Source: a virus
IMG/VR virus record: IMGVR_UViG_3300037488_001249
Span: 1-39,244 of that record
Length of the DNA stretch: 39,244 nt
Direction: 5' to 3' (one strand)
The notes beneath the pieces are model-generated. The model had not been told where the DNA came from. It was given only the letters and a program-made list of their open reading frames with translations, and ran no database searches. A program made the position numbers and the translations under genes. This document shows positions 124 to 37,821 of the stretch, in pieces. Numbering within the stretch: the first letter of the stretch is position 1; each line of letters opens with the position of its first letter.

Positions 124-140
124 AACCGCGCCTCCTGTTA

Positions 141-155
141 GGCCCCCAAGGGGCC
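141..155. other. GC-rich hairpin in the divergent intergenic region
   Basis: GGCCCC (141-146) pairs perfectly with GGGGCC (150-155) around a CAA loop. Read on the minus strand it lies in the leader of the gene starting at 123, a few bases upstream of that gene's ribosome-binding site, so it could act as an attenuator or translational control. Read on the plus strand it is followed, after 13 bases, by a T6 run (169-174), too far for a classical intrinsic terminator. Function is inference. Confidence 0.45.
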
Positions 156-216
156 ACCTCGAAAAAACTTTTTTAGAAAGCAATCCCCCATTTCGATTTT
201 CCCCTAAAATTACTAA

Positions 217-9557: not shown

Positions 9558-10462
9558 AAAATCGAGTTGAACTATTTCTTGCATTATTTAGCACGTTAGT
9601 TTTAGTTGGTTCATCGACTTATCGTAATCCTGTTCCTGGTACGTATATGGGATCTAGTAAAAATTCTTATCCGTTAGCGAACAAACCGTCTTTTAGTGCT
9701 CCTGTATTTGACTCTACTGCAGTAGTCGCGCAGATAGGTACCCCAGTATGGGCGGATATAGCTGAGACGATTCATTTTCTTACTCCGATTATAGTTACTA
9801 ATGGAACTAATTATGATTATTATTACCGATATCACACACTAACGAGTACGTGGGATACGGATAATCTATGGGCTGCGTGGGTGCATGATAGTGCCGAAAT
9901 TACAGTTGGTGATAGTATATTATTTAGTTCAACCACGGTAACTGCGCGTAGTGCTCGTGAGTGGGCAGTCGCGGGACTAGATGGATACCAAAGTATGGTG
10001 CAGATAAATGACAGTCATTTTTACTACTCTCCATGGTTGGTAGCTCCCGCGTATGTACACCCTGATACGTCTGGTCCCGCTAGTTTGATTGGGGACGTAC
10101 AGTATACGTACGCATGCGGTGATTATCTATCCGCGACTATAGATACAGTTAATGTTTCGTGTACCTATCCATGTTATACTGATGGTGATATGGTCTACAT
10201 TAAATATCGATGGGAGTGCATTGCAGGTTCAAACATAGGCTACACAGATTCTACTGAGTATGAATTACAACCACTAATCTATGAGGAAGAGTATTTACGT
10301 ACATTTGTAATCACTGCGAATACATGTGTGAATATTTGCATGGATTGTACAGAACTTGAAATGTATATTAAAATTAAGACTAGGGATCGTTATACACCAC
10401 TTGAGGCGGTGGAATCATTATGGATATCTTTCGCAGAATTTCAGTTGCCATGTGGAAATTAG
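9548..10462 (+). CDS. Exported cysteine-rich protein (signal peptide)
   Basis: 304 residues starting MVVKNRVELFLALFSTLVLV: basic N-region, hydrophobic core and likely cleavage near residue 25. The mature part is beta-rich and has many cysteines in its C-terminal half (YTYACGDY, VSCTYPCYTDGD, NTCVNICMDCTEL, LPCGN), as expected for a disulfide-bonded protein folded outside the cytoplasm. It overlaps genes on both sides (10 bp before, 43 bp after), so it is probably co-translated with the subtilase. No family is recognised. It could be a partner, receptor or inhibitor of the neighbouring protease; that is speculation. Confidence 0.65.
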   Translation: MVVKNRVELFLALFSTLVLVGSSTYRNPVPGTYMGSSKNSYPLANKPSFSAPVFDSTAVVAQIGTPVWADIAETIHFLTPIIVTNGTNYDYYYRYHTLTSTWDTDNLWAAWVHDSAEITVGDSILFSSTTVTARSAREWAVAGLDGYQSMVQINDSHFYYSPWLVAPAYVHPDTSGPASLIGDVQYTYACGDYLSATIDTVNVSCTYPCYTDGDMVYIKYRWECIAGSNIGYTDSTEYELQPLIYEEEYLRTFVITANTCVNICMDCTELEMYIKIKTRDRYTPLEAVESLWISFAEFQLPCGN

Positions 10463-12381
10463 TACTACTGTTTACCTGCGGCCTAGTAGCGGGGCATACG
10501 TACCCTATCGCCGCCTGGACACAGTCACCCAATGCGATTTCCATCACTCCTAATGATTTTTGGTTCAATAATAGCCTCGGAGATACGTTAGGTAATACCA
10601 TGGTAGATCCGTATCATTTATCTCAGTGGTACCTATTAGATGATTGCTTAAACCTGCCGCGTGCGTGGTCTATTACTACAGGGGACTCAAGTGTTGTCAT
10701 TGTTAGTAAAGATATTGATATCCAAGTGCCTCATCCAGATATGAACTTACGTGCACTTCCTGCGCTAGCTGAGCGAAATGGTACTTCTGGTGTCGATGAC
10801 GATCATGATGGACATATCGATAACGCTTATCTAGCGACAGGAAATCGACTAGATAGTGATATTTACTCTTATCCACCATGGGTAAGTACACGTCCCGGAT
10901 TTGTAGCTGGGAATTCATCGGGTCGTCACGGAACATTCTGCTTGGGACAAGTAGTTGCAGGAACTAACAATGGTACGCACATTGCAGGGATCGATTGGAA
11001 ATGCAAATACTCTCCGATGGATCATACGGCTATGACCGGGTACACAGCATATTCTGTGGTAAATTGGGTCCGGTATCTTAAGTATGATTTAGGTCAGGAT
11101 GTTCGCGTAGTTTCTGCGTCATATACGAACGCGTTTACTGCACATACTACGCACCTACTAATTGAAATGGGCGTACTTCCTATCACGGGTGCAGGCAACA
11201 ATAATAGTTCAGACGTACTACAAAGCTATACTAGTGATAGTTTAGTCGTTGTCGGCGCAGTCAATATAAATTCACTACGTACGATAGCTGGCGGATCTTC
11301 ATATGGACCTAATATTGATTGCGTAGGGTATAGTGCAGAATATAATAACTTCTATCGTTGGACTGATTTTAGTGATATCCCGGATCATTCTGCTTCGTGG
11401 CGTGCGCATCCGTATAATCCAGGAAAAACAGGTGCGGATAAGGTAGCTGCATTTTCAGCATTACGTGCTGATCCACGATCTCCAATTACACTGTACTCGT
11501 ATTGGATGCAGGATGACGGTATTGGTGCAACTCAATTTTGGGATATAGAGAGTACAGTATGGCGTGCAATTGCATTTATCGGTGCTAATAATCGACCTCC
11601 TTACGGCACGTATAATACGCTTGTAGATGGGGTATCATTCCAGACCGTATTGACGTCAGGTGCTACTTCACAAGCAACTGGAATAGCTACTTTAATTGTA
11701 GCCCATAATAAGTCTAATGAAACTCCTATCACGGCGTTAGGATTACGCGCAGCGTTATTACGTGGATGTGTAAATGTAGATAGATTCAATAGTCTTGCTT
11801 CTGGTGGTTATAATCGATGCTGTTCAGATGGTACGGTAGCGACGTGTACAACTGGTGTAGGTGGGACGTACGTTCCTGATGACGACTGCGATTTAAAATT
11901 AGGTGCAGGACGTCTAGATGCGTATCGATCCTTAACTCTCTGGGGACGTGTAGCACAGGATACTACATTTCAGGGTGATGTTTATGTTTCAGGTGATGTG
12001 TTATTTACTAATGATGCCGTGATCACGATTAAAGCAGGTACAAAATTTCATATCATGCCTGAAGATATTACTGACACAGATCCGTGGCAGTCATTAATCC
12101 AGTACGATCCCGATAGAACGATAGATGATACATGCGCGATGACGGATCAAATGTCTGGAGAAGAGGGTAAAATTGAAATCGTAATCGGAGAAGCAACTGT
12201 GCGGTACCAAGGTACTGGGTATGATCCGATCTATTTTCAATCTTATTGTACCGCACCTACTAATGACGACTGGTGTAGACTACGCGTAAGTAATGATGCA
12301 ATCATTACTGGATATGATACAGATAGTGTCCGCGTGTTAAATGCATCTTATGACGTTGTCACGGATCCCCCACCTGAGTAG
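10420..12381 (+). CDS. Secreted subtilisin-like serine protease (S8 family) with C-terminal beta domain
   Basis: 653 residues. Signal peptide: FRR/MWK basic region, then LVLLFTCGLVAG. The S8 triad is complete: Asp98 in KDIDIQVPHPDM (aligned ungapped with DTGxxxxHPDL), His170 in RHGTFCLGQVVAG, oxyanion Asn260 in GAGNNN, and Ser417 in SGATSQATG. The loop GVDDDHDGHIDN (124-135) matches the acidic, probably Ca-binding loop of many subtilases. GAGRLDAYRSL (495-505) ends the catalytic domain. A beta region follows (VYVSGDVLFTNDAVITIKAGT), like the start of secreted beta-helix domains. Clustered cysteines suggest disulfides. No separate I9 propeptide is evident. Its target may be host surface protein, virion protein or lysis; unknown. 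Confidence 0.88.
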   Translation: MDIFRRISVAMWKLVLLFTCGLVAGHTYPIAAWTQSPNAISITPNDFWFNNSLGDTLGNTMVDPYHLSQWYLLDDCLNLPRAWSITTGDSSVVIVSKDIDIQVPHPDMNLRALPALAERNGTSGVDDDHDGHIDNAYLATGNRLDSDIYSYPPWVSTRPGFVAGNSSGRHGTFCLGQVVAGTNNGTHIAGIDWKCKYSPMDHTAMTGYTAYSVVNWVRYLKYDLGQDVRVVSASYTNAFTAHTTHLLIEMGVLPITGAGNNNSSDVLQSYTSDSLVVVGAVNINSLRTIAGGSSYGPNIDCVGYSAEYNNFYRWTDFSDIPDHSASWRAHPYNPGKTGADKVAAFSALRADPRSPITLYSYWMQDDGIGATQFWDIESTVWRAIAFIGANNRPPYGTYNTLVDGVSFQTVLTSGATSQATGIATLIVAHNKSNETPITALGLRAALLRGCVNVDRFNSLASGGYNRCCSDGTVATCTTGVGGTYVPDDDCDLKLGAGRLDAYRSLTLWGRVAQDTTFQGDVYVSGDVLFTNDAVITIKAGTKFHIMPEDITDTDPWQSLIQYDPDRTIDDTCAMTDQMSGEEGKIEIVIGEATVRYQGTGYDPIYFQSYCTAPTNDDWCRLRVSNDAIITGYDTDSVRVLNASYDVVTDPPPE

Positions 12382-18005: not shown

Positions 18006-18470
18006 ATGCCATTTAGTGGTGGTACTAACATTGGACTGAACCGGTTGGGGGTAGAAGATGAAAGAACTACTAATACATTAAATACATTATATGGTGGGGT
18101 GAATACTGATTTACAAAGTATAATGCAAGATTTACTAAAAGGTTACGCTAGTGCAGAACAGGGCGCAACTGAGAATTGGAATCGTGCAATGACTATGGGT
18201 ATAAAAAGTGCTATGGGTACTATGGCTAAATCGGGCATGCGTAGTTCCGCAGGTCCGGCATACGCGGGAATATTAAATTCTAGAAATGCCAGTCAATTAA
18301 TGCAGTTGCTAGTAGGAACCCGTCTTCAAATGCCTTATCAAGCGTATCAAATGAAGGCCCAGTATTATCAATTACTAAATCCACTACTCCAATATGGTAT
18401 GCAAGAACGTGCGGGTAACGCATCACAAATTGGAGTTAGTGGTGGATGGGGACCGGTGAAAACGCCATGA
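18006..18470 (+). CDS. Small virion/ejection-type protein
   Basis: 154 residues from the second of two adjacent ATGs (18003 is only two bases from GGAGG). Helical and Ala/Met/Gln-rich: a helix around 35-100 (LQSIMQDLLKGYASAEQG, MGIKSAMGTMAKSGMRSSAG) and a Gln/Tyr-rich helix around 105-135 (MPYQAYQMKAQYYQLL). It begins the run of genes ending in two giant proteins, mirroring the T7 order gp14-gp15-gp16 of internal core proteins, so it may be the gp14 counterpart. The stop overlaps the next ATG (ATGA). Confidence 0.6.
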   Translation: MPFSGGTNIGLNRLGVEDERTTNTLNTLYGGVNTDLQSIMQDLLKGYASAEQGATENWNRAMTMGIKSAMGTMAKSGMRSSAGPAYAGILNSRNASQLMQLLVGTRLQMPYQAYQMKAQYYQLLNPLLQYGMQERAGNASQIGVSGGWGPVKTP

Positions 18471-20029
18471 CAGCTATATCTTATGATGATGGTACGGAAT
18501 ATCCTAGTCCATTTGATGAAACACCGACTAATGCCACAGTAACTGTAGATGGTAAAGAAACGGATGTAGTTACTAATTCAGTACAGGGTCCTTCTGCAAT
18601 GCTTATGGGTGAATTAGATGATAATATATTTGGTGGGGGCGCGCTCGATGCCAGGCCCTGGAAAAGACCCAGTTCAGTGGCCTTCACGGCCCCTCTACGC
18701 GGTGAGACGGCCTCGGCCGGGGCCACCGGGGCGGCAGCTGAGTCCGCCCCGCCTGACGGTGCTCAGGGGCCTAAACACAAGTTTTTTACATCTGAAAATA
18801 TTCTAGGGCATATCCTTACTGGGGTAGGTGCAGCAGTAACTGCAGCCGCTGCTGCAGCTGGTGGGCCTATTGGTATGATGGGCGGAGCCGCTCTCATGAG
18901 GGCTGGCGGAGATATTAGTAATAAAGAAGAGGCTAATATTGAATATGGCCAGGCTGAACAGATAGCTAGTATTAAAGCTACGCAATCCAGAGGTACTGTG
19001 TATCATCCACCGATTGCTCAGATAATGGAGCAAGGTGGCATAGCCGCATGGCAAGGCCCTGGAGTATATACAAAGTGGCAGGAAGATACTCGAGAGATGA
19101 TACGATCTAACCCGCCTGAATATGCTTACATGGCGCCTACCGTAGAGTTACCTTATGAAGCTCAGTTAGCGGCACGCGGTGCGAAAACGAATAATATGAA
19201 ACAATCAATAGAATTTGCTAAAATGTTAAGAGACACTGGAAACCTTACAATGGCCAACGCACTATTGAAGGCGATATATGGAACTACTCAGGTCGGTGAA
19301 GTTAGATTAAAAGATCAGGCAGATTTTGTATTAGATGAGTTAGCATTACAATCTGTTCCAGAAGATTTTTTAAGTAACCTTATTAATAAAGATGTTTCAT
19401 ACACTGATGCCCTGAAAATGATTGATAATATACGTGAGTTAACGTTACGTGATCCCGCTGCAGGCGAGCGATTAAGTAAGGCACTAATGGACGCGCAGTC
19501 TGGAATGGCTGAGCACGTTTATGAAGATACTATCGCTAGGGAAACTGCACAGATTGATGCTGCGGAGGCCGCACGAAAAGATGATGTATTAGTTATTCCG
19601 GATCTTGTGGCCGATGAAGAAGCAAAATTAAATAAAGATCCAGCACATATAGCGCGACTAAAATCACTTAGGGTAGCATTAGGTGCTGACGACCCCGTAA
19701 AATTACATCGAGATGAAATGTCTATCAGGATTAGAGATGCATGTATGAGAAATAATTGGACACCTACTCAATTTTCTTCATTGAGTTATTGGGCTCAGAT
19801 ATCATATAAATTAGCAGAATTTTCTAATGGTGGTGATGATAAATTAGCTACTTCGGTACGTAATACTTATCCTGAGTGGTTGAGATACATCACAGCGTGG
19901 AACTTTAAGTATGGTTTTTCTTTGAATACAACTGATGAAAATGAATTACATATGTTACATTTACAGGGATATAATGAATATATTAATAGACAACTGGAAC
20001 AGAATACTCAATCAAAGGCGCCTAAGTGA
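18467..20029 (+). CDS. Internal/ejection protein with Gly/Ala-rich membrane-active segment
   Basis: 520 residues from the ATG at 18467 (ATGA overlap). An earlier in-frame ATG at 18446 would give a longer overlap and is less likely. The first ~60 residues are acidic and disordered. Residues ~63-102 come from a GC-rich palindromic patch (P/A/G/S-rich). Residues ~115-150 are a Gly/Ala-rich hydrophobic segment (LTGVGAAVTAAAAAAGGPIG), suggestive of membrane insertion during DNA entry. The remainder is long helical, charged sequence. Position suggests a T7 gp15-like role. No enzyme motif recognised. Confidence 0.62.
   Translation: MTAISYDDGTEYPSPFDETPTNATVTVDGKETDVVTNSVQGPSAMLMGELDDNIFGGGALDARPWKRPSSVAFTAPLRGETASAGATGAAAESAPPDGAQGPKHKFFTSENILGHILTGVGAAVTAAAAAAGGPIGMMGGAALMRAGGDISNKEEANIEYGQAEQIASIKATQSRGTVYHPPIAQIMEQGGIAAWQGPGVYTKWQEDTREMIRSNPPEYAYMAPTVELPYEAQLAARGAKTNNMKQSIEFAKMLRDTGNLTMANALLKAIYGTTQVGEVRLKDQADFVLDELALQSVPEDFLSNLINKDVSYTDALKMIDNIRELTLRDPAAGERLSKALMDAQSGMAEHVYEDTIARETAQIDAAEAARKDDVLVIPDLVADEEAKLNKDPAHIARLKSLRVALGADDPVKLHRDEMSIRIRDACMRNNWTPTQFSSLSYWAQISYKLAEFSNGGDDKLATSVRNTYPEWLRYITAWNFKYGFSLNTTDENELHMLHLQGYNEYINRQLEQNTQSKAPK
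18653..18772. repeat. GC-rich palindromic patch A, inside the 18467-20029 gene
   Basis: About 120 bp of very GC-rich sequence in an AT-rich gene. Outer imperfect inverted ends: AGGCCCTG (18653-18660) and CAGGGGCCT (18764-18772), one-base bulge. Inner stems: GTGGCC (18677-18682) with GGCCAC (18721-18726), GGCCCC (18688-18693) with GGGGCC (18719-18724), and GGGGCGG (18728-18734) with CCGCCCC (18744-18750). The reading frame stays open and yields a Pro/Ala/Gly/Ser-rich linker. Whether it is an inserted element or local drift is undecided; boundaries are approximate. Confidence 0.6.
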
Positions 20030-23000: not shown

Positions 23001-25053
23001 GATAGTAGGAAAATTAAACGAGTTTGTTGATAATCTCTGGTCGCAGTATTTATTAGCTCAAGTGGCACGTCGTCAACGTTTCGGGCGTGTCGATGCTAAA
23101 GCGTTGGAGTCTTCGTCGGCACCTTTTAAAGCTATGGTAGAGTCTGGACAGCCTACGTCTAGATCTCTCACGGCACTGATTGCTCAGTTAAGAAATACGA
23201 CAGACTATACTCAAGCAGTAGAAGATATCCCTTATGATAGCGTGTTCTTCGATGCGCGTGGCACTAGTACAGATATTGTTGACGCATTAAAATATGCTAC
23301 TAATCACGTTAATAAAGAAATTCATATGCGTGAACCACTTGATGGATTAGAAGCTATTATTATGGATGCCAAGGGACGTGGAGCTTATGACGAGGCCGCA
23401 TATACACAATTACTTGCGAATCGACTTAATGGAGTACCTAATTTTATAGATGATTCAGTTCGTAGTACACGTGCCGCTAGTATTGCACACTTACCTATAA
23501 AAAATGAGTGGAAGACATGGCTACTTAAACATGCCCCGACAGGATTAGAATTATCCCAGTTACAAACACGTGCAATTTATAATGGTGCATTGATGCTGAA
23601 TACTGGATTTGCATTTAAGAATTTATTTGGTACATTAAATACAGGTGCAAGATTTAATCGTGCGCGTACTATGAGTTCTCTATTTCAATTTTTTGGAGAC
23701 ACTAAATTACTCAGTGGTACTGATATGGCCGGTAGTGCCAATCTTACTGCGGAAGTGGCTGACTATTTTATGTCTGCGACTCCCCGTAGTAAATTATATA
23801 TGAAAATAAATGGTATGACAATGGGCACGGAAACTTTTAATCGCGGCGTATCATTTATGGCTGCAATGGATAGTGAAATTGAACGTTTAGTTGATCTTAA
23901 ATTACTAAAAACTGGATCAATGCAAGAGATACTCGATGCAGGACTGCTTGAACATTTTACTCAATTAGGTATGGATGGTGCATTTGAAACCCAACATATT
24001 TATGGTCCTAGTGCGACACCCCCATTTTTTGCGGGAGGCAAATTAGATCCAGGTGGGTCGAAAATATTAAATCCTCTGGGGCAATTTATTAGTTACGTCC
24101 CTAAACAAATGCATGCAGCTTGGAGAATGATCGCTGACGGTGAATATTCTTCATTTGTACGTATGGTGATGTTAACCGGATGGACTAATAGATGCTTAGA
24201 AGCTCAAGGTATTGACGGGTCAACATTTGTTGGACTCACTACAGGAGTTCCTGCGGGCGGGTCTCCAGCACTAATGGGATATCTAGAAATGATCGGGTTC
24301 TTTGCTAACGTGACTACTAATATGCCTCAGGCTAAAATTCATTTAGATAAATGGGTACGTATTATGGCGCTAACTGCTGCGGGAGCAGTTGGATTAGGTG
24401 CTGTTGAACTTACTCGATTAGCTACTGCAATTAGAAATGAAAATGCGGGTGGTAAGATGACTGCTAGCGGATCATTGGCTAATGTGCGTGGTAAGCGTGA
24501 AAAAGTTTATGATTTAATTGGAATTCCTACTATACAAACAGCTAAATCTCAGGCATTAAATGCACGTGCTCAGGCATATACAGCAGTAAAATTATCTACT
24601 ATCGCAGGTGCTTCACGTGAATTATTAGATTTATTCAAGGAAGCACAGGAGAATGGATTAGAAACTGCAGACATGAAGGAGCGTAGAGATGAATTAATTT
24701 CAATGTTAACTGCTGAGCAGTGGGATCCACGACCAGCTATTAAATCTGCGAGAGAAAGAGAAGCCGTTGATCAACCTACGCGTTCATTACTTGATGGAAG
24801 ATTAGACGGACTAATCGCAGTACGGAAAGAATATGGATTACTACGAGAATGGGTAAACGTTTCAGAACATTTCTTACGTAAATCAATGGGCGATGAAAAA
24901 TATGTTGAATTACGTAAAGCACTCACTGGCGACACACCTTATGCAAATGACGCAGCATTCGCGCTCAGTCAAATTGATTCTACTACTCATGCTGAACGGA
25001 ATAAAATGTGGGAACGTCGCGAGCCTGAACCTACTAATCCGGAGGAAGAATAA
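20029..25053 (+). CDS. Giant internal virion/ejection protein 1 (1674 aa)
   Basis: 1674 residues from the ATG at 20029 (TGATG overlap with the previous stop). The first ~60 residues are a Pro/Thr/Ala-rich disordered leader. The long middle is helical and highly charged. Hydrophobic or amphipathic segments cluster in the last third, notably around residues 1180-1210 (LMLNTGFAFKNLFGTLNTG) and 1444-1463 (IMALTAAGAVGLGAVELT), as in proteins that form a trans-envelope channel. I find no polymerase, transglycosylase or protease motif. Size and place match T7 gp16-like or other podovirus ejection proteins. The stop overlaps the GroES-like start (TAATG). Confidence 0.68.
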   Translation: MAEPTKDIYSSLKVSTNAPVTADAPVVSSTPTAGRLLPMDPATPPVDWRIIDGSTQPSMATGPVSDLAARDMGNGLTRPLGPAANFISDVFTGQPIAEGAMRVIRTTPSATEKFYNLFTNGAYPIRRMLGFAEQGKRWLEAQGTNLWNTIDGKAFDSELQRGLALSVLTDEMTPDEAIKLGALVYTGGDVDWTIFGQALQLLRGEIPKNRTDEQQKLITTLDRGGSLTTDISEDTWWRTVTSEQTMDYLDSLAIVDFQALLSDDQKTQLPQLAKIAKQMDVSVADVARLTTFLFNDPLAADTYVDAARGIARIGSLRNKLKSLWAAGEATAEMVDDVVRKNVVPKGESPEKAYARAEKMKRTEARRQALREIHAAEIADKSQGGILKVLNKVAGHIAPDLQESVHLFRQYWTERSAAKINFYNHMMETDPKATLRSAEENTRLVDDFARNTFPNFAQWNSDIRFRAALSNAGIVRTDSPKLVRIYGELADAIKLGDQSAIRTKWLEADALTKQLDQADNWLSDDPPIMVALHTMIQDFEGDKFLQHSYAELTEDPTLIESLARYFATLPSPSPYDTRTDVSDLRRTAFAEALNASGLNEWAANAVRRVDFDPAEFMKRLRRMPQTPEALEELRLVMQNAQLVHTRYRAVWRRLRQGTSEYPGMSAEAARKRLAELSADMSIGLMSAREGFQQGTRSVSGASSIADLVDIDDNTLFRINVKRDPRVRDMLKAGRKSGYDPDSKSILLHPVDWFVGDMYFKKFLRKQGLQIRAAEVLMHDWMQETNQVLMPILERMLPRARDRILRTDGGRSSRRQLIGKMMSWSETLTPSEIIKYSSPSGVTLNPERIKLITLEANKPRLEKIKLLTQTRDQNILLEQMINADILKWDTAHPLDPEAWTGGKYKIGNRKVTIGSRQDWRHIIRDMGQIESDIKTESAQIINSPQAVRDFYAAQQMPMTFNLQAYLVDHPTAFDEVDSAGNVIHQEITDEDIQIVGKLNEFVDNLWSQYLLAQVARRQRFGRVDAKALESSSAPFKAMVESGQPTSRSLTALIAQLRNTTDYTQAVEDIPYDSVFFDARGTSTDIVDALKYATNHVNKEIHMREPLDGLEAIIMDAKGRGAYDEAAYTQLLANRLNGVPNFIDDSVRSTRAASIAHLPIKNEWKTWLLKHAPTGLELSQLQTRAIYNGALMLNTGFAFKNLFGTLNTGARFNRARTMSSLFQFFGDTKLLSGTDMAGSANLTAEVADYFMSATPRSKLYMKINGMTMGTETFNRGVSFMAAMDSEIERLVDLKLLKTGSMQEILDAGLLEHFTQLGMDGAFETQHIYGPSATPPFFAGGKLDPGGSKILNPLGQFISYVPKQMHAAWRMIADGEYSSFVRMVMLTGWTNRCLEAQGIDGSTFVGLTTGVPAGGSPALMGYLEMIGFFANVTTNMPQAKIHLDKWVRIMALTAAGAVGLGAVELTRLATAIRNENAGGKMTASGSLANVRGKREKVYDLIGIPTIQTAKSQALNARAQAYTAVKLSTIAGASRELLDLFKEAQENGLETADMKERRDELISMLTAEQWDPRPAIKSAREREAVDQPTRSLLDGRLDGLIAVRKEYGLLREWVNVSEHFLRKSMGDEKYVELRKALTGDTPYANDAAFALSQIDSTTHAERNKMWERREPEPTNPEEE

Positions 25054-25448
25054 TGCCCGTCCGTCGTAATCTTACCCATGGTTTAATCGGTGATCGTATT
25101 TTAGTGGATGTGGATAAAAATATTACATTCCAGCCCATGTTTGATAGAATTTTGGTGGAGCCTATTGAGACTAAAACTAAAACAGAGGGTGGAATTATTA
25201 TTCCGGAGACCGCACGTATCGAAGAAACTATGGGTAAGATAGTAGCCACTGGCCGCGGTCATTTTGACGAACAGGGTAATTACATTGATTCTGAATGTCC
25301 ATTCAAAGTTGGGGATACCGTTATCTTTAAGGAGTTCACTGGTACCCATATTACATTAGGACCGCAGCAGAAAAGTTATTTAATTATGTGGTACCGCGAT
25401 GTACTTGGCGTCCTCAAGAAGGAGCCGATCAGTGCCCGAACTGAATAA
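25053..25448 (+). CDS. groES: GroES-type co-chaperonin (Cpn10), phage-encoded
   Basis: 131 residues; typical GroES is about 95. The core begins at residue ~29 (MFDRILVEPIETKTKTEGG). It includes the mobile loop with the hydrophobic tripeptide III in GGIIIP, the ETMGKIVATG strand, KVGDTVIFKEF (the GD.V.F roof/base strand) and the final DVLGVL. It should cap GroEL and change the folding chamber, as T4 gp31 does. The 28-residue N-terminal extension contains GDRILVDV, an apparent partial repeat of the core's DRILVEP strand. The gene is coupled by TAATG to the giant protein upstream and overlaps the next giant gene by 17 bp, implying coordinated production with these proteins. Confidence 0.9.
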   Translation: MPVRRNLTHGLIGDRILVDVDKNITFQPMFDRILVEPIETKTKTEGGIIIPETARIEETMGKIVATGRGHFDEQGNYIDSECPFKVGDTVIFKEFTGTHITLGPQQKSYLIMWYRDVLGVLKKEPISARTE

Positions 25449-30924: not shown

Positions 30925-31265
30925 CTCCACGGTCTCGCACATGATCCAGGAGGGCCGGGATCATAAGGAGCGCTAGCTACGGAGCGGAGTCCTGTTCTAT
31001 TGGTTGCATCACGAGCGACCACCCTGACATATTCCACACTACGGTTATGCGTAACGTAACCGAATGTGTCCTGCACGGTTGAATACAAATGGCAGGTATT
31101 GGAATCTGGACTGCAGACATAGATGTCATAGCTGGTTGCAATAGATCCAGTCGTTGGGGCGCGCCAATGATAGGTATACCCGACGATCTGACTTCGTACC
31201 GGTACGACGGCGATGGCGATGAGGGTGGCGATTCCGATTCCATATCCAATCCATCCCTTCCGCAT
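30921..31265 (-). CDS. Exported fibronectin-III-like protein inside the replication operon
   Basis: 114 residues. The start ATG at 31265 shares a base with the polymerase stop (TAATG) and has AAGGAGG seven bases upstream. Signal peptide: MRKGW then GYGIGIATLIAIAVV, cleavage likely after VRS (about residue 25). The mature domain has the Fn3 strand pattern: YHWRAPTTGSIATSYDIYV, then VEYVRVVARDATNRTGLRS, then Pro-rich DPGPPG. It is odd among replication genes. Early expression plus export suggests a cell-surface role such as superinfection exclusion, or a decoration; both are inference. Confidence 0.6.
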   Translation of the reverse strand: MRKGWIGYGIGIATLIAIAVVPVRSQIVGYTYHWRAPTTGSIATSYDIYVCSPDSNTCHLYSTVQDTFGYVTHNRSVEYVRVVARDATNRTGLRSVASAPYDPGPPGSCARPWR

Positions 31266-33172
31266 TACCATACCTCCTTGGAATCCGACCAATTACCTAA
31301 ACATTGTTTGCAGCATACTACAATAGGAATGGGAGCGAACATCGACCAGTCCTCCATTAGACGTTTCACCTCCTTATGAAATTCGGGGGTATCATCTTTT
31401 TCACGCACCTCAAACATAATTTCATCGTGCACTGTATTAATCTCATGCGCATCTACATCACGTTCTGTGAACATTTCATCAACACGTACCATACTATATT
31501 TCATGATATCGGCTGCAGTTCCTTGAACCAGATAGTTAAGTCCTTTATAAGCTTTCTGAGGATCGCATCTGAATCTTCTACCGAATGCTGATACCACACC
31601 TCCGGTCGTGACCACGGAGCGTTGACAGTCGTGCATAAGAGTCTTGAGTCCTGGGTAAGTTCCGAAATAGCGACTAAGAATTCCCACGGCTCTGGATTCT
31701 GGAATTCCGTATCCGGTAATAAGTTTTTTGAGACCAACTCCGTAGAGCACACCAAAGTTGACCATCTTACAAAAGGAACGCTTGGCAGGGTCAACTTTGC
31801 CACTTCCGTCCGGATCGATCCAATCGTCTGGGAATACAGCCTTAGTAGTTGCAGTATGGATATCTTCTCCACTATTAAACGCAGCGCACATGTTTTCATC
31901 TCTAGAGTAGAAGGCGGCAACACGAAGTTCGACCTGGCTATAGTCAGGGGCATACATGTTATATCCGGGTCTTGAAATAAGTGCTCGTCGAACATCCGGA
32001 GTTTCATGACGATCGAAATCTAGTAATCTTCCAGATTTGACGCTCGGTATTGTATGAAATGATGGATCACGTGAACTGAATCTCCCTGTTTTAGTACCTG
32101 CTTGCCAGAATGATGGATGTATCGCACCATCTTTTCCGGTAACACGCACAAATTTCTCAAAATAAGTTCCTGCCATCTTATCCAGCATTCGCATATCCAT
32201 GACTAAATGAATTAGCGGATGATCGTAGAGTTTTAATACATTACGTGCTGTTGACCACGCGCCTGATTTAGTTTGTAAAATGTGTCCAAAATGTCTTCGT
32301 TGTTCAACGGTTAAATTATCTTGTAGACGCATTTCATAAAAAAGTGCATGTGCTAGTTGCTTTGATGAGTTAACATTAATTGGATAGCCCACAATTTCAT
32401 TAATTTTAAGTTGTATACGTGCTTGCCATTCTCTACAATTAACGGCCTGAGCTTTTGCATAGGGAATATCACAGAGCATTCCACGTGCTTCCATACGTCC
32501 AACGAGTTCACATAATTTACGTTCATTATAATAAAGATCGCGCTGGTTTTGATCCTGTAATTTTGGAAATAGTCCACGGTAAAGTGCCATAGTATATTTA
32601 GCATCATCTAATGCATATTCTAATAGAAGTTCTTCGGGTACATCTGTGAATAATGAACCGGGATGTTGTTTCATCCACTCTTTTAATTTAAATTCAGATG
32701 AGGTATCTGCCTTTAGTAGCCATCGCGCCAATACTTTTAATCCGATGAGTTTTGCATCTGGAAATACTAATCTAGCTAAGATCATTGTATCGTGACCTAA
32801 TCCTGCAACTGGCCAACCAGCCGCTTTAAGCATTTCCACATCGAATTTAGCATTATGGTATACTTTAGTCATTTCTGGATTACAGATCATATTCCACAGG
32901 TCTTCCATAGTTTGGATGGCCTCTGTTGGCTTTACCAGCCGCCAACTGGCTAGCCAAGGGGGTGGCCGCCCTAGCCCCCATACCGCCCGCACAGCGGGGT
33001 CTGGGCGGCCTAGCTGGGCTTCTACCCCCCCTTCACCGGGGGCCAGGCGGGCTAGACCAGTATTTCCCTGATAGTCACTAAATGTAATTACAAATGGATA
33101 ATCACCATCCCAATAATGAAGTCCTGTAGTTTCCGTATCAACCGCGAATGTGGTTTCCGGTGTCCCATTCAC
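31265..33172 (-). CDS. Family A DNA polymerase (3'-5' exonuclease plus polymerase)
   Basis: 635 residues from a GTG at 33172, weak RBS, overlapping the ThyX-like gene by 35 bp. The exonuclease is intact: FAVDTETTGL (Asp12, Glu14), VYHNAKFDVEML (Asn107, Asp111) and YALDDAKYT (Asp190). Polymerase motifs: A YAPDYSQVELRVAA (Asp410), B RSFCKMVNFGVLYG (Arg465, Lys469, Phe473, Tyr477), C INTVHDEIMFEV (Asp583). No 5'-3' nuclease domain. Residues about 38-80, between exonuclease strands and the next helix, come from a GC-rich palindromic patch, giving a Gly/Pro/Arg/Trp-rich loop. It is the replicative polymerase of the phage and works with the primase-helicase upstream. Confidence 0.95.
   Translation of the reverse strand: MNGTPETTFAVDTETTGLHYWDGDYPFVITFSDYQGNTGLARLAPGEGGVEAQLGRPDPAVRAVWGLGRPPPWLASWRLVKPTEAIQTMEDLWNMICNPEMTKVYHNAKFDVEMLKAAGWPVAGLGHDTMILARLVFPDAKLIGLKVLARWLLKADTSSEFKLKEWMKQHPGSLFTDVPEELLLEYALDDAKYTMALYRGLFPKLQDQNQRDLYYNERKLCELVGRMEARGMLCDIPYAKAQAVNCREWQARIQLKINEIVGYPINVNSSKQLAHALFYEMRLQDNLTVEQRRHFGHILQTKSGAWSTARNVLKLYDHPLIHLVMDMRMLDKMAGTYFEKFVRVTGKDGAIHPSFWQAGTKTGRFSSRDPSFHTIPSVKSGRLLDFDRHETPDVRRALISRPGYNMYAPDYSQVELRVAAFYSRDENMCAAFNSGEDIHTATTKAVFPDDWIDPDGSGKVDPAKRSFCKMVNFGVLYGVGLKKLITGYGIPESRAVGILSRYFGTYPGLKTLMHDCQRSVVTTGGVVSAFGRRFRCDPQKAYKGLNYLVQGTAADIMKYSMVRVDEMFTERDVDAHEINTVHDEIMFEVREKDDTPEFHKEVKRLMEDWSMFAPIPIVVCCKQCLGNWSDSKEVW
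32946..33060. repeat. GC-rich nested palindrome, patch B, inside the DNA polymerase gene
   Basis: About 115 bp. Imperfect inverted ends CTGGCTAGCC (32946-32955) and GGCTAGACCAG (33050-33060). Nested inside: AAGGGGGT (32956-32963) with ACCCCCCCTT (33024-33033), GGCCGCCC (32964-32971) with GGGCGGCC (33003-33010), and an apex hairpin CCCGC-ACA-GCGGG (32986-32998). All arms are in nested order, so the whole segment can fold back on itself. The polymerase frame is kept. Flanking sequence is AT-rich phage-like. Looks like an in-frame palindromic insertion; origin unknown. Confidence 0.65.
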
Positions 33173-33974
33173 GTCCCCACACCCTTTCTAAGTTATTAAG
33201 ATTATCAATGCATCGTTTAGAATGTGCCCAACTATCGGCATCGTCATGAGGAATATGCTCCTCATGTTGCATCCAAATAGGACATGTGGGTTGCGGATCT
33301 ATCCCCTCGTATCTCTCCCTCATGATTTCTCGGACGGTGCATCCTGTGTGTTTCCATAAGTGGTCTTTGCACGGAGGGAGATTGAGTCCGGCAAATGCTC
33401 GGTGCTCATTCGCGAGGATCTTAGCCACTTGAAGAAGGACAGGCGTCCAAAGATCAGTCTGAGCATTCCAACACGTCCGCTTGTGGAACCGGACCATAAG
33501 CGCCTGAAGGTTTGTTGTCCAGATCCCGCGGTGTAGGGTGCCGACAGGTACCAAGTTTCGGTATTCTGAAGGATTGAGACCAAAAGTAGATGCTCTGCGT
33601 GCGAAGGATTTAATGTCTGCAACGATTCTGTCAAAATCCTGTGCGAGTTCAGGTGTTGCTGCCACCTTTGGCGGAACGTCGACTCTGAGTTGAGTAGCGT
33701 AGTCAGTGATTCTTCCACCTTGGATGAAATAATCATCGTACTGTGAGCGCACGAGTTGCTCTCGGAACGATATAGGCATGTCTTCCAAAAGGAACGTGAA
33801 TTTGAGGTGTCGTACAACGGGCACTTCTTCACGGACCAATTTGAAGATAAGATCCTTATCAATGATGGGATCGTCCATGGACACTGGTCCGCAGTCATGA
33901 GCAGTCCTCCAGATTGTTTGGATCAACTCCTCTGGATGCGATGGTGATGCTAATAAGGTTACTTTAATCCCCAT
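33138..33974 (-). CDS. Divergent ThyX-like (flavin-dependent thymidylate synthase family) protein
   Basis: 278 residues from the ATG at 33974, with GAGGAG upstream. The ThyX core is seen in RHLKFTFLLEDMPISFREQ (family E-H-x-x-F-x-F-x-I-E) and in NLQALMVRFHKRTCWNAQ (family N-x-R-x-L-x-x-F-x-x-x-R-x-C-x-x-A-Q). The signature RHRxxSxxxxSxR is replaced by R76-S-Q-Y-D-D-Y-F-I-Q-G-G-R88: the His, the second Arg and the Ser residues are gone. A Cys-containing C-terminal extension (about 200-235) is also seen in some phage ThyX proteins. Normal ThyX methylates dUMP with folate, FAD and NADPH. The altered motif may mean a changed pyrimidine substrate or chemistry, or loss of activity. Confidence 0.65.
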   Translation of the reverse strand: MGIKVTLLASPSHPEELIQTIWRTAHDCGPVSMDDPIIDKDLIFKLVREEVPVVRHLKFTFLLEDMPISFREQLVRSQYDDYFIQGGRITDYATQLRVDVPPKVAATPELAQDFDRIVADIKSFARRASTFGLNPSEYRNLVPVGTLHRGIWTTNLQALMVRFHKRTCWNAQTDLWTPVLLQVAKILANEHRAFAGLNLPPCKDHLWKHTGCTVREIMRERYEGIDPQPTCPIWMQHEEHIPHDDADSWAHSKRCIDNLNNLERVWGREWDTGNHIRG

Positions 33975-34554
33975 TGCGATGCTCCTCAAGAAGTTCAATG
34001 GCCTCACGGATGATCATAACCAGCGTATCATACTCAGCTACTTCAGTGGATACTGTACGTCCATATTCTTCACACTCAGATACAATATCCATAAGATGGT
34101 GATTACCCATACGAAGTTCTTTAATGATATATGCTACTACGGCGAGAAAGTCTGCCACTTTAATGATAGCTCCCTCGAGATCATTTTCTTTTGCATCTTC
34201 CCAGTCACTAAAAACTTCTAATCCGGGGTTGCCAAAGGGCAACATTAATTTTAACATAAAATCATTAGCTGCTTTAGCTATTTCTAGGCGTAAAGATGGA
34301 TTAGCGTATTTAAATGAACGTTGAAAATCTCCAGTTAAAGACTCATCTAAATCGTGTGCTACGGCACGTCCAAGAAGTGTGCCCATTAATACCGGCGTTC
34401 CCATACGGCGACCTATGATCAATGCATAAAGTGCTACGTAGAAACTATGTTCCGCAACCGTCTCCCTTGCAATCACAGGACGACTCGAGTAACGAAAAAC
34501 ATGACTGGCACGCTGAAGGTTCCCACAGAGGAGGGCTTCTGTAAATGCTTTCAT
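33964..34554 (-). CDS. HD-domain 5'-deoxynucleotidase (YfbR/DatZ-like)
   Basis: 196 residues, close to E. coli YfbR (199). HD metal ligands: His36 (VAEHSF), His67-Asp68 (AHDLDE) and Asp135 (KVADFL). Also YfbR-like are FRYSSRP at 20-26 near the substrate phosphate and ESLTGDFQRSFKY at 71-83. YfbR hydrolyses dNMPs to deoxynucleosides; the DatZ branch of this fold in 2-aminoadenine phages destroys dATP. Sequence alone does not choose between them. The start ATG overlaps the deoxyribosyltransferase stop (ATGA), so the two are probably made in equal amounts and linked in function: one releases deoxynucleosides, the other exchanges their bases. Confidence 0.82.
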   Translation of the reverse strand: MKAFTEALLCGNLQRASHVFRYSSRPVIARETVAEHSFYVALYALIIGRRMGTPVLMGTLLGRAVAHDLDESLTGDFQRSFKYANPSLRLEIAKAANDFMLKLMLPFGNPGLEVFSDWEDAKENDLEGAIIKVADFLAVVAYIIKELRMGNHHLMDIVSECEEYGRTVSTEVAEYDTLVMIIREAIELLEEHRNGD

Positions 34555-34994
34555 TCAATGGCTCCTTCATATTCATATCTGATTCTTTCAAGATCTGATT
34601 TGGATTCAATACTATAGAGTATTCGATTGAGTTCAGAGGTGGATCGGATGACAATCGTACCTGACTCAGCGAGCATAAGATTAAATGGTTTATCTCCAAG
34701 AGTTTCTGCAAAATAGATGATTGACTTACCGGATCTATATGCATATCCGCATTCGAAGATAGTTCCAACGTCTTTATGATCCGTGACTGCCACGAGAAAG
34801 TCAGCGGCGCAAATGTGAGTAAGATTTTGAGTAAAGGCGACCCGTCTTCGGTCCTTTGAATCATTTGGGCGTACCTCTAATTCATGTTTAGGTGAAAATA
34901 TCTGATGCCGGGATACCTTGAGAACTGCATGCACACGCTCATGAATATCAGCCTGTTCTGTACTAAACCACGGGGCTGCGTAGTATATCTTCAC
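34551..34994 (-). CDS. Nucleoside 2-deoxyribosyltransferase
   Basis: 147 residues from a GTG at 34994 preceded by GGAAGGAAG. This start gives the canonical N-terminus MKIYYAAPWFSTEQ; it overlaps the primase-helicase end by 32 bp. Family motifs: beta1 Y-Y-A-A-P-W-F, AADFLVAVTDHKDVGTIFE with Asp72, Asp75, GT 77-78 and the catalytic Glu81 (E-x-G-x-A), then GKSIIYFAETLGDKPFNLML. The enzyme transfers 2-deoxyribose between purine or pyrimidine bases. In this operon it could recycle deoxyribose or build unusual deoxynucleosides. Confidence 0.85.
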   Translation of the reverse strand: MKIYYAAPWFSTEQADIHERVHAVLKVSRHQIFSPKHELEVRPNDSKDRRRVAFTQNLTHICAADFLVAVTDHKDVGTIFECGYAYRSGKSIIYFAETLGDKPFNLMLAESGTIVIRSTSELNRILYSIESKSDLERIRYEYEGAIE

Positions 34995-37821
34995 CTTTAA
35001 CTTCCTTCCACCAGTCGGGGTTTTTAATTGCTCTGATACGTGTTTTACGAAGCCACTTAATGAATGGTTCTCGTTTAGTCCACCAACTATGCTCAGCACG
35101 TATGGCTCTTAATGATACTAACTTATTTCGGACGTCTTTAGCAAGCTGCCAGTCTATGTCCAAGCTTGCCTCGATACCTTTTACGGAAATTTTAGGGACT
35201 TCCAACAAATCACCGATCCATTGATTGGATCTCTGCTTGTAACTAGCGAAGAGATTTTCAAGCTCCCGTTCGGATAGCAGTGACGATCTCTCGAACTGTA
35301 GAGCAGAGTAGACGTCGTAGGCCATCGCGTCACTATCGTATAAGTATTGGAGGAAACCGACAGCATAGCTTGCACAGGCTGCGGTAACACGTATACATTC
35401 TCCCGTATCATCCGTTGAAAACACTCGGCCGGCAACGGCCACAGCCACTTTTGCAATTTTTTCCCTCGCATTCTCCGCTTGGATTAACGGAATTGAATGA
35501 TGATATTTCTTACCTAATGCGACAGACGCTTCAAGAATAATATGAGTTGCTTCGTCAGTGAATTGAATTTGACTAGGTTTTCTAGACCAAATCCATAAGA
35601 TTAAATCACGGCAAGCTTGCTGCAATTCTGGGCGTGATTCAACCTCAATACCTCGTCCCGCATTAATAACTTCAGAGTCAACTTCATCTGATGCAATTAC
35701 AATGACGTAGTCGAATCTGGCGATGTCTTCTTTTCGCTCAGCCATAGTGAGTACTGACTCGACACCGTGTTCAAACTCTCTAATCCCCCGTCCGTCTGCA
35801 GGATTAGCATTCCAGATAGTGCGTGTTCTAGCCATAGTACGTTCCGTAACAATCTTAAAGACTTCTGCGACACCTTCGGATCTAACCCTCGACATTCTAG
35901 ATAGTGTGTCTCCCGCGACAGCACTAGCTTCGTCAATGATGACCAGGCGTCGATCATTCCGTGGAATAAATCCCCAAGTAACTGCCCACGATTTTCTGGC
36001 TCCCAACTGCTGGACACCTCCAATGAGTCCAGCAAAAGTACAATTTTCTCCTGATGCCACTTCTCCAACTCCGAAATACCTCGACAATCTTTCAGTAACA
36101 TATCCTTTACCTGTTCGAGTATCACCCATGACAAGGACGTCCAACCACCCCCGCTTAATAGATTCGTTGTTGAAATTAAATCCAAGGGCGGAGTGGAATA
36201 CAAGATCAACTGCCTGATGGAGAGCTCGTCGCTTATAGATTTTGGTAATTCCGATAGCGCAGTATTCATAGAAATCGTCGAGGAAATTATGGATGCTGGT
36301 GAGGGAATTACCGGATGGAAAGATCCGTCGTAATTCATTTTTTCTATCCTCAGTTAAAATGAATCGATCTAGTTGGTCAGCAGCATATTCGTGATCAACA
36401 ATAAGAAACACAGCGTGCTGAGTATCTGGATCAGGATAGATATAGCCCCTAAACACATACGTAGCATTCGCATCCAAATTATAGGTTTGAGCCAATGCTG
36501 TACGCATGACATATTTAAACTCGCAGTCATCAGATACTTCCTCTATTGGAGCGACTAATTTTAATTCCTCCATGTTAACTGATTCTAATACATCAATACG
36601 TACATTACATCGTCCATTACATTTAGCCCACTCTTTGATATGAGAATGTAATTGACCTTCAGTACAATTAGTGAGCCCTAAAGTTCGCTCATCATGGAGG
36701 TCGATATTTAGTACTGTAACATACGGCTCAGGTCCGGAACATACGGAACATTTGCGTTCCGGTTTAGTCATGCATGTTAATTTAACACGCTTAGGTACAA
36801 TGTAAGGCTGCACATCCTTACCTGCAACGTGCGCCTTAAATTGGATTGGTACGCCTCTCATGAGGGAGTGCGCCGCGTCCTGTAGTTTGATCTCCTTAAA
36901 TAATTTTTTCTGGACCACTTGTGGTGTAGTAACGATTATCTGCCCGGAATCTACTATAGCACGTAGTCCTTCGATAGTGCCTTGATGACGAATAATATAG
37001 TCCGTTAAATCTATCCCAGGTGTTTCATACCGAGCGATTTTAAGGGTGCGGGCTTTGGATGTTAAACTGGCTGCGATACGTTGGCTTCCATCCCAACCAG
37101 GTTGATCATTATCGAGAAGTACTATAACACTATGGTCCTCAAGATAATTACTAAATTCCTCGTTCCAATAGCCCGCACCACCGGTACTGCAAATGCAATT
37201 AAGGCCACACTGACGGCCGAGAAGTGTATCTAATTCACCTTCTGTGACTATTACTTCTGGACCATTCAATGCGTTTATGGGAAATAGTGCTGACCGTCCA
37301 TAACCTTCAGCATAACTGATCATTTTGGCTTCGGATTTTCTAGTGATATCATACCGACGCACATTGATGACCATACCAAACTCATTCTCCACAGGGATTG
37401 TCAGTCTCGCCCCGTCAAAGCCGAGTTTGTAGTACTGAATAGTCTCGACGGTTAGGCCACGTTCTTGCAGTAACCATTTCTGTACTATAGGGGTAGCCAT
37501 TAATGTTCTATGCCATTCCAATGCAGTTTCAATAGGCACTGTAGGACGTACATACTTAGAATAAATTTCCTTCATAGCATGTTGGAAAGGAACTTGATGC
37601 TTCTTAACGTAAAATCCAATAAAAGAAGTTCCACGACCGTCACACTCACCACTGTGACAATAATATTCTCCTAGTGCGTCAATATTAATAGATAATGACG
37701 GATTTAAGTCGTCGTGAAATGGACATATTACATTCTGACCTGGAATATAATTATCCAATTCGGACTTATAAAATTCCTCTACATTCACATGACTATGAAG
37801 ATACGCCTGCAGTGTCTGCAT
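34963..37821 (-). CDS. DnaG-type primase fused to MCM-like AAA+ replicative helicase
   Basis: 952 residues. Residues 1-70: zinc ribbon with Cys33, His36, Cys55, Cys60 (CPFHDD, YYCHSGEC). Residues ~100-290: Toprim primase core with Glu194 (VTEGELDTLLG) and Asp237/239 (IVLLDNDQPGWDG). Residues ~300-430: middle region with several Cys (CMTKPERKCSVC, CNGRC), position of an MCM N-terminal OB/zinc domain. Residues ~525-715: AAA+ with GDTRTGKG (566-573), VASGENCTFAGLIGGV, Walker B VIIDEA (627-632), sensor WNANPADGRG (N673) and an ARFD arginine-finger motif (R702), the MCM order. A winged-helix-like C-terminus follows. Phage primase-helicases usually use DnaB or SF3 motors instead. ATG three bases after the previous stop. 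Confidence 0.85.
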   Translation of the reverse strand: MQTLQAYLHSHVNVEEFYKSELDNYIPGQNVICPFHDDLNPSLSINIDALGEYYCHSGECDGRGTSFIGFYVKKHQVPFQHAMKEIYSKYVRPTVPIETALEWHRTLMATPIVQKWLLQERGLTVETIQYYKLGFDGARLTIPVENEFGMVINVRRYDITRKSEAKMISYAEGYGRSALFPINALNGPEVIVTEGELDTLLGRQCGLNCICSTGGAGYWNEEFSNYLEDHSVIVLLDNDQPGWDGSQRIAASLTSKARTLKIARYETPGIDLTDYIIRHQGTIEGLRAIVDSGQIIVTTPQVVQKKLFKEIKLQDAAHSLMRGVPIQFKAHVAGKDVQPYIVPKRVKLTCMTKPERKCSVCSGPEPYVTVLNIDLHDERTLGLTNCTEGQLHSHIKEWAKCNGRCNVRIDVLESVNMEELKLVAPIEEVSDDCEFKYVMRTALAQTYNLDANATYVFRGYIYPDPDTQHAVFLIVDHEYAADQLDRFILTEDRKNELRRIFPSGNSLTSIHNFLDDFYEYCAIGITKIYKRRALHQAVDLVFHSALGFNFNNESIKRGWLDVLVMGDTRTGKGYVTERLSRYFGVGEVASGENCTFAGLIGGVQQLGARKSWAVTWGFIPRNDRRLVIIDEASAVAGDTLSRMSRVRSEGVAEVFKIVTERTMARTRTIWNANPADGRGIREFEHGVESVLTMAERKEDIARFDYVIVIASDEVDSEVINAGRGIEVESRPELQQACRDLILWIWSRKPSQIQFTDEATHIILEASVALGKKYHHSIPLIQAENAREKIAKVAVAVAGRVFSTDDTGECIRVTAACASYAVGFLQYLYDSDAMAYDVYSALQFERSSLLSERELENLFASYKQRSNQWIGDLLEVPKISVKGIEASLDIDWQLAKDVRNKLVSLRAIRAEHSWWTKREPFIKWLRKTRIRAIKNPDWWKEVKGEDILRSPVV

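Follow-up and report, generated by a model that had tools for sequence, protein, structure and literature searches.

We interpret two GC-rich islands in a phage genome (patches A and B, Table 1) as having probably arisen when short pieces of foreign GC-rich DNA, each of about 120 bp, were inserted in frame and independently of each other into two unrelated genes. The window analyzed is the entire virus record IMGVR_UViG_3300037488_001249 (39,244 bases, GC 42%), and its gene set marks it as a tailed phage whose portal is of the SU10 type.

Table 1 Positions of the GC-rich patches, their carrier genes, compared segments and other features of the phage genome
Feature	Position	Strand	Remarks
Patch A	18653..18772	+	120 bp, 40 codons by paired ends; GC-defined limits 18632-18771
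Patch A carrier ORF	18446..20029	+	527 aa; no family match
Patch B	32945..33061	-	117 bp, 39 codons, polymerase residues 38-76
Family A DNA polymerase with 3'-5' exonuclease domain	31265..33172	-	carries patch B
Portal tail	5314		amino-acid make-up similar to the patches
Ala/Gly helix	18794		amino-acid make-up similar to the patches
Leader	20080		amino-acid make-up similar to the patches
GC-rich hairpin	126-161		intergenic
Subtilase in the structural gene module	10420-12381		Peptidase_S8
GroES-like co-chaperonin gene	25053-25448		Cpn10, E 1e-24
Two adjoining nucleotide genes	33964-35099		
Primase-helicase	34963-37821		

A maximal-segment scan for GC over the whole record placed patch A first (140 bp, 74% GC, score 29.3) and patch B second (32935-33052, 118 bp, 75% GC, score 26.4); the third-best segment of this genome scores 8.6. 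The highest GC-segment score was 14.2 in 100 simulated genomes and 18.5 in viral or phage-like DNA from 85 loci (1.43 Mb in all), which were mostly gathered via the primase-helicase gene, are only remotely related to this phage and differ in GC, with 23 of the 85 (0.42 Mb) lying at 35%-52% GC. Both patches are composition outliers beyond everything else examined. The edges of patch A are sharp: the G+C count per 10-bp bin climbs from 1-2 to 7-9 and drops to 2-4 again on the right, which confirms the abrupt GC rise reported in the initial annotation. The second patch that it had placed in the polymerase was recovered as an island of similar size and composition within the polymerase ORF, and its view that two such patches make chance drift less likely agrees with the occurrence of two such islands, unmatched in the genome, the simulations and the 85 loci, and with the insertion of B indicated by relatives of the polymerase. 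A weaker GC island was seen on a contig binned as Thermoplasmatota (L110:13168-13271; 104 bp, 66% GC in 37% GC DNA), where one frame of the + strand is open across most of the translated segment.

The base composition at codon positions 1, 2 and 3 (GC1/GC2/GC3) is 0.71/0.80/0.68 in patch A compared to 0.53/0.42/0.28 in the remainder of its ORF, and 0.89/0.68/0.63 in patch B compared to 0.54/0.39/0.32. Alternatively, the low-complexity linker encoded by patch A could be native to the protein, with its GC raised by the Pro, Ala and Gly codons, in which case only B, or neither patch, was inserted. This would fit the disordered look of the N-terminal part of the protein in a low-confidence model and the tendency of linkers to drift fast, there being no homologue to reveal a gap. 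However, G or C occupies 26 of the 39 synonymous third positions of patch A, where 11.1 are expected from the amino acids (z 5.3), and in patch B the corresponding figures are 21 of 37 and 10.4 (z 3.9). Other Ala/Gly/Pro-rich segments of the genome (at 5314, 18794, 20080 and 6261) have a GC3 of only 0.30-0.35, and therefore amino-acid choice is not the driver of patch GC. The GC excess resides in the DNA and not in the protein sequence, and we consider a native linker unlikely. When a piece of an ordinary gene from a high-GC organism is read in its proper frame, GC3 is expected to be the highest of the three positions. GC3 is no higher than GC1 and GC2 in patch A or patch B, and in this respect the patches are unlike such a fragment. 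Windows with nearly as high GC3 exist at 1073-1190 and about 33557, but without high GC1 and GC2.

The evidence for insertion is strong in the case of patch B, for which the motif spacing in relatives and a structure model both point to extra codons added in frame at a loop of the exonuclease domain that tolerates them. The polymerase (Pfam PF00476 and PF01612) has intact exonuclease and polymerase motifs and catalytic residues. In this polymerase 99 residues separate the aspartates of exonuclease motifs I and II, as opposed to 56-75 in those relatives in which the motifs could be reliably located, and taking out the 39 codons delimited by the paired ends of the patch would leave a spacing of 60. 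From these shorter spacings an empty site can be deduced at the protein level, so that the check on empty-site relatives proposed in the initial annotation favours insertion in the case of B; no true empty site was seen at the DNA level for either patch, nor at the protein level for A, as no close relative of the phage was found. A structure model of the polymerase, built from seven sequences, has a mean pLDDT of 82 and resembles Pol I structures; its confidence is lowest at residues 48-67, which lie between the exonuclease-domain strands at 38-43 and 77-81. A profile made from the same number of polymerases was too diverse to serve as a search query. The arrangement resembles the loop insertions of family A DNA polymerases, where a surface loop takes up extra residues and the catalytic motifs stay intact, but patch B far exceeds its gene in GC content, a sign of foreign DNA rather than of a loop that lengthened by degrees. 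Even as a one-off capture, it would clearly illustrate that a DNA polymerase can, in nature, accommodate 39 foreign residues within the exonuclease domain.

For patch A we argue with moderate confidence for an in-frame insertion, on the basis of its composition, size, sharp edges, disordered-looking position and parallel with B. The limits given by the paired ends begin on a codon boundary, and the frame is open through the whole carrier ORF, the patch encoding RPWKRPSSVAFTAPLRGETASAGATGAAAESAPPDGAQGP. The Pro/Ala/Gly-rich make-up described in the initial annotation is confirmed, as is the position of the patch ahead of a segment that is hydrophobic and rich in Ala and Gly (residues about 116-158). 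The likelier start of the ORF is the ATG at 18467, which overlaps the upstream stop as ATGA. A 155-residue ORF precedes it and two giant ORFs (1675 and 1581 residues) follow. Judging by this gene order, the product may be an ejection protein or another protein inside the virion; the earlier label "ejection protein" is a positional guess, since the protein has no match among Pfam or PHROG families. Its single-sequence model (pLDDT 38) has no interpretable fold, although the N-terminal part looks disordered in this low-confidence prediction. Because homologues of the carrier protein were found neither in 50,697 phage records nor in IMG/VR, we infer the insertion of A from composition and from the parallel with B. 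The positional counterpart in the Manatee Spring phage MW202601 (genes of 155 and 494 aa) has no detectable homology.

The likeliest route by which the inserts may have arisen is that GC-rich DNA was captured twice, by illegitimate recombination or template switching. The sites would be flexible ones, namely a loop of the exonuclease domain (B) and a disordered N-terminal region ahead of a hydrophobic helix (A), and the inserts may have been tolerated because each sits in such a place, being translated as presumably disordered Pro/Ala/Gly/Arg-rich linkers that would do no obvious work. GC-rich DNA has few stop codons. By our own calculation, a random 120-bp piece at 75% GC is open in a given frame in about 58% of cases, so that the open frames of the patches need no special explanation; one third of random pieces keep the frame by their length. 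Misassembly, with chimeric GC-rich reads joined into the metagenomic contig, could be imagined for a virus contig in which end repeats were not found and for which no close relative is available for checking, but two internal inserts that are each in frame and stop-free are an unlikely product of it, and we give this explanation hardly any credence.

The palindromic character ascribed to the patches in the initial annotation is weak. The imperfect inverted ends of patch A (AGGCCC-TGG and AGGCCCCTGA) are present, but 20% of shuffles do equally well, which is at chance level; those of patch B (ACTGGTCTAGCC and ACTGGCTAGCC, with a one-base bulge) are equalled by 2.4% of shuffles. With GC-defined limits the folding z score is -0.25 for patch A (with flanks) and -0.34 for patch B, and the modest values of -1.7 and -1.5 obtained with limits set by the pairing ends depend on the choice of boundaries, which had been picked in the initial annotation because the ends pair. 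The nested internal stems described there for patch A are not clearly more than chance would give. Counts of inverted and repeated 6-mers in the patches are ordinary. Target-site duplications or flanking direct repeats are not seen at either patch in the sequence as read, and with hairpins and ends not clearly above composition and no second copy, the description of the patches as palindromic elements is not supported.

Two of several words tested are enriched, GGCC in patch A (7 vs. 2.5 in shuffles, P 0.002) and CTAG in patch B (4 vs. 1.9 in shuffles, P 0.05). Together with the strong composition and the high absolute stability of the stems, this would be compatible with the patches being cis-acting DNA or RNA signals (for packaging, replication, regulation or recoding) that lie inside coding sequence by happenstance. 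The enriched word differs between the two patches, however, as do the sequences at the two sites, the stability is not clearly above that expected from composition, and a scan of the window against Rfam gave no hit reaching the gathering score and, around patch A, none even with E values of up to 1. Cis-acting signals are therefore a very improbable explanation. A short GC-rich intergenic hairpin (TTAGGCCCCCAAGGGGCC) near the start of the record is probably a terminator; it has TTAGGCCCC in common, as the reverse complement, with the right end of patch A.

The similarity between A and B is within that of shuffles and they have no peptide in common, in line with the earlier statement that their ends differ. 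The search for more copies that had been recommended yielded no genuine one: within the genome each query matched only itself, phage and plasmid records contained none at blastn sensitivity, and exact probes, which diverged copies would escape, found none in IMG/VR or GTDB contigs. Partial matches of 25-28 bp in high-GC phages (L106-L108; GC 64-70%) are attributed to chance, the query being a GC-rich 19-mer, and 24-base matches in Pseudomonas phages have an E of 0.4. The source sequence of the patches was not found in the collections searched. No transposase family was matched among the proteins scanned, which were part of the ORFs. Searches with the polymerase, terminase, capsid and primase-helicase recovered only remote relatives of the phage, and the two remote matches among genome contigs (Microbacteriaceae and a Thermoplasmatota bin) are insufficient to name a host.

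These results bear on another explanation, according to which both patches would be copies of coding palindromes that are short and mobile, i.e. non-autonomous hairpin DNA that inserts in frame in the phage and probably its host, similar to the Rickettsia palindromic elements (RPE). As described in a review (PMC10969869, citing Ogata et al. 2000 and 2002), RPE are about 100-150 bp long, lie in frame in unrelated protein genes and are tolerated by the carrier protein. An element of this kind would give much the same picture as the one observed. The patches fall in this size range (117 and 120 bp when delimited by their paired ends, 118 and 140 bp when delimited by GC), are GC-rich relative to the genome, occupy unrelated genes in frame and have phase-0 boundaries with pairing ends, the end pairing of B surpassing 97.6% of shuffles; insertion in frame in an otherwise conserved gene, as in RPE, is indicated for patch B by spacing and model. 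In contrast, RPE form multi-copy families with common sequence and a conserved peptide, whereas A and B are unrelated as DNA and as peptides, and no genuine further copy turned up in the genome, among the phage and plasmid records or with exact probes of IMG/VR and GTDB; their palindromy is weak, their folding is not clearly above shuffles, no target-site duplication is seen, and the carrier is a phage. Since repeated copies with shared sequence and peptide are the defining feature of RPE, the reading as palindromic elements is not established, and we give it a small chance. The Coxiella QMITEs and other intragenic MITEs are likewise short, non-autonomous and able to form in-frame fusions with genes (PMC5896051), and in being short DNA in frame inside genes the patches resemble them, but MITEs are defined by repeated copies and terminal inverted repeats, neither of which was demonstrated for A and B. 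The broader proposal that several families of short GC-rich coding palindromes move among the phage lineage and its host and insert in frame, as a phage-borne counterpart of RPE, is doubtful. If the inserts were mobile, the range of protein-coding selfish DNA, now comprising a few intracellular bacteria, would come to include phages, and phage proteins would have a direct route to acquire new segments.

Some further features of the genome may be mentioned apart from the two independent insertions that we favour. The structural gene module includes a Subtilase, and the GroES-like co-chaperonin gene is flanked by two giant virion-type ORFs. A YfbR-like deoxynucleotidase gene and a nucleoside 2-deoxyribosyltransferase gene adjoin each other, a pairing that suggests nucleotide-pool remodelling. 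The primase-helicase combines a DnaG-type zinc ribbon, a Toprim domain and an MCM-like P-loop domain, and its identity is about 34% with many uncultured phages and about 32% with Microbacterium phages.
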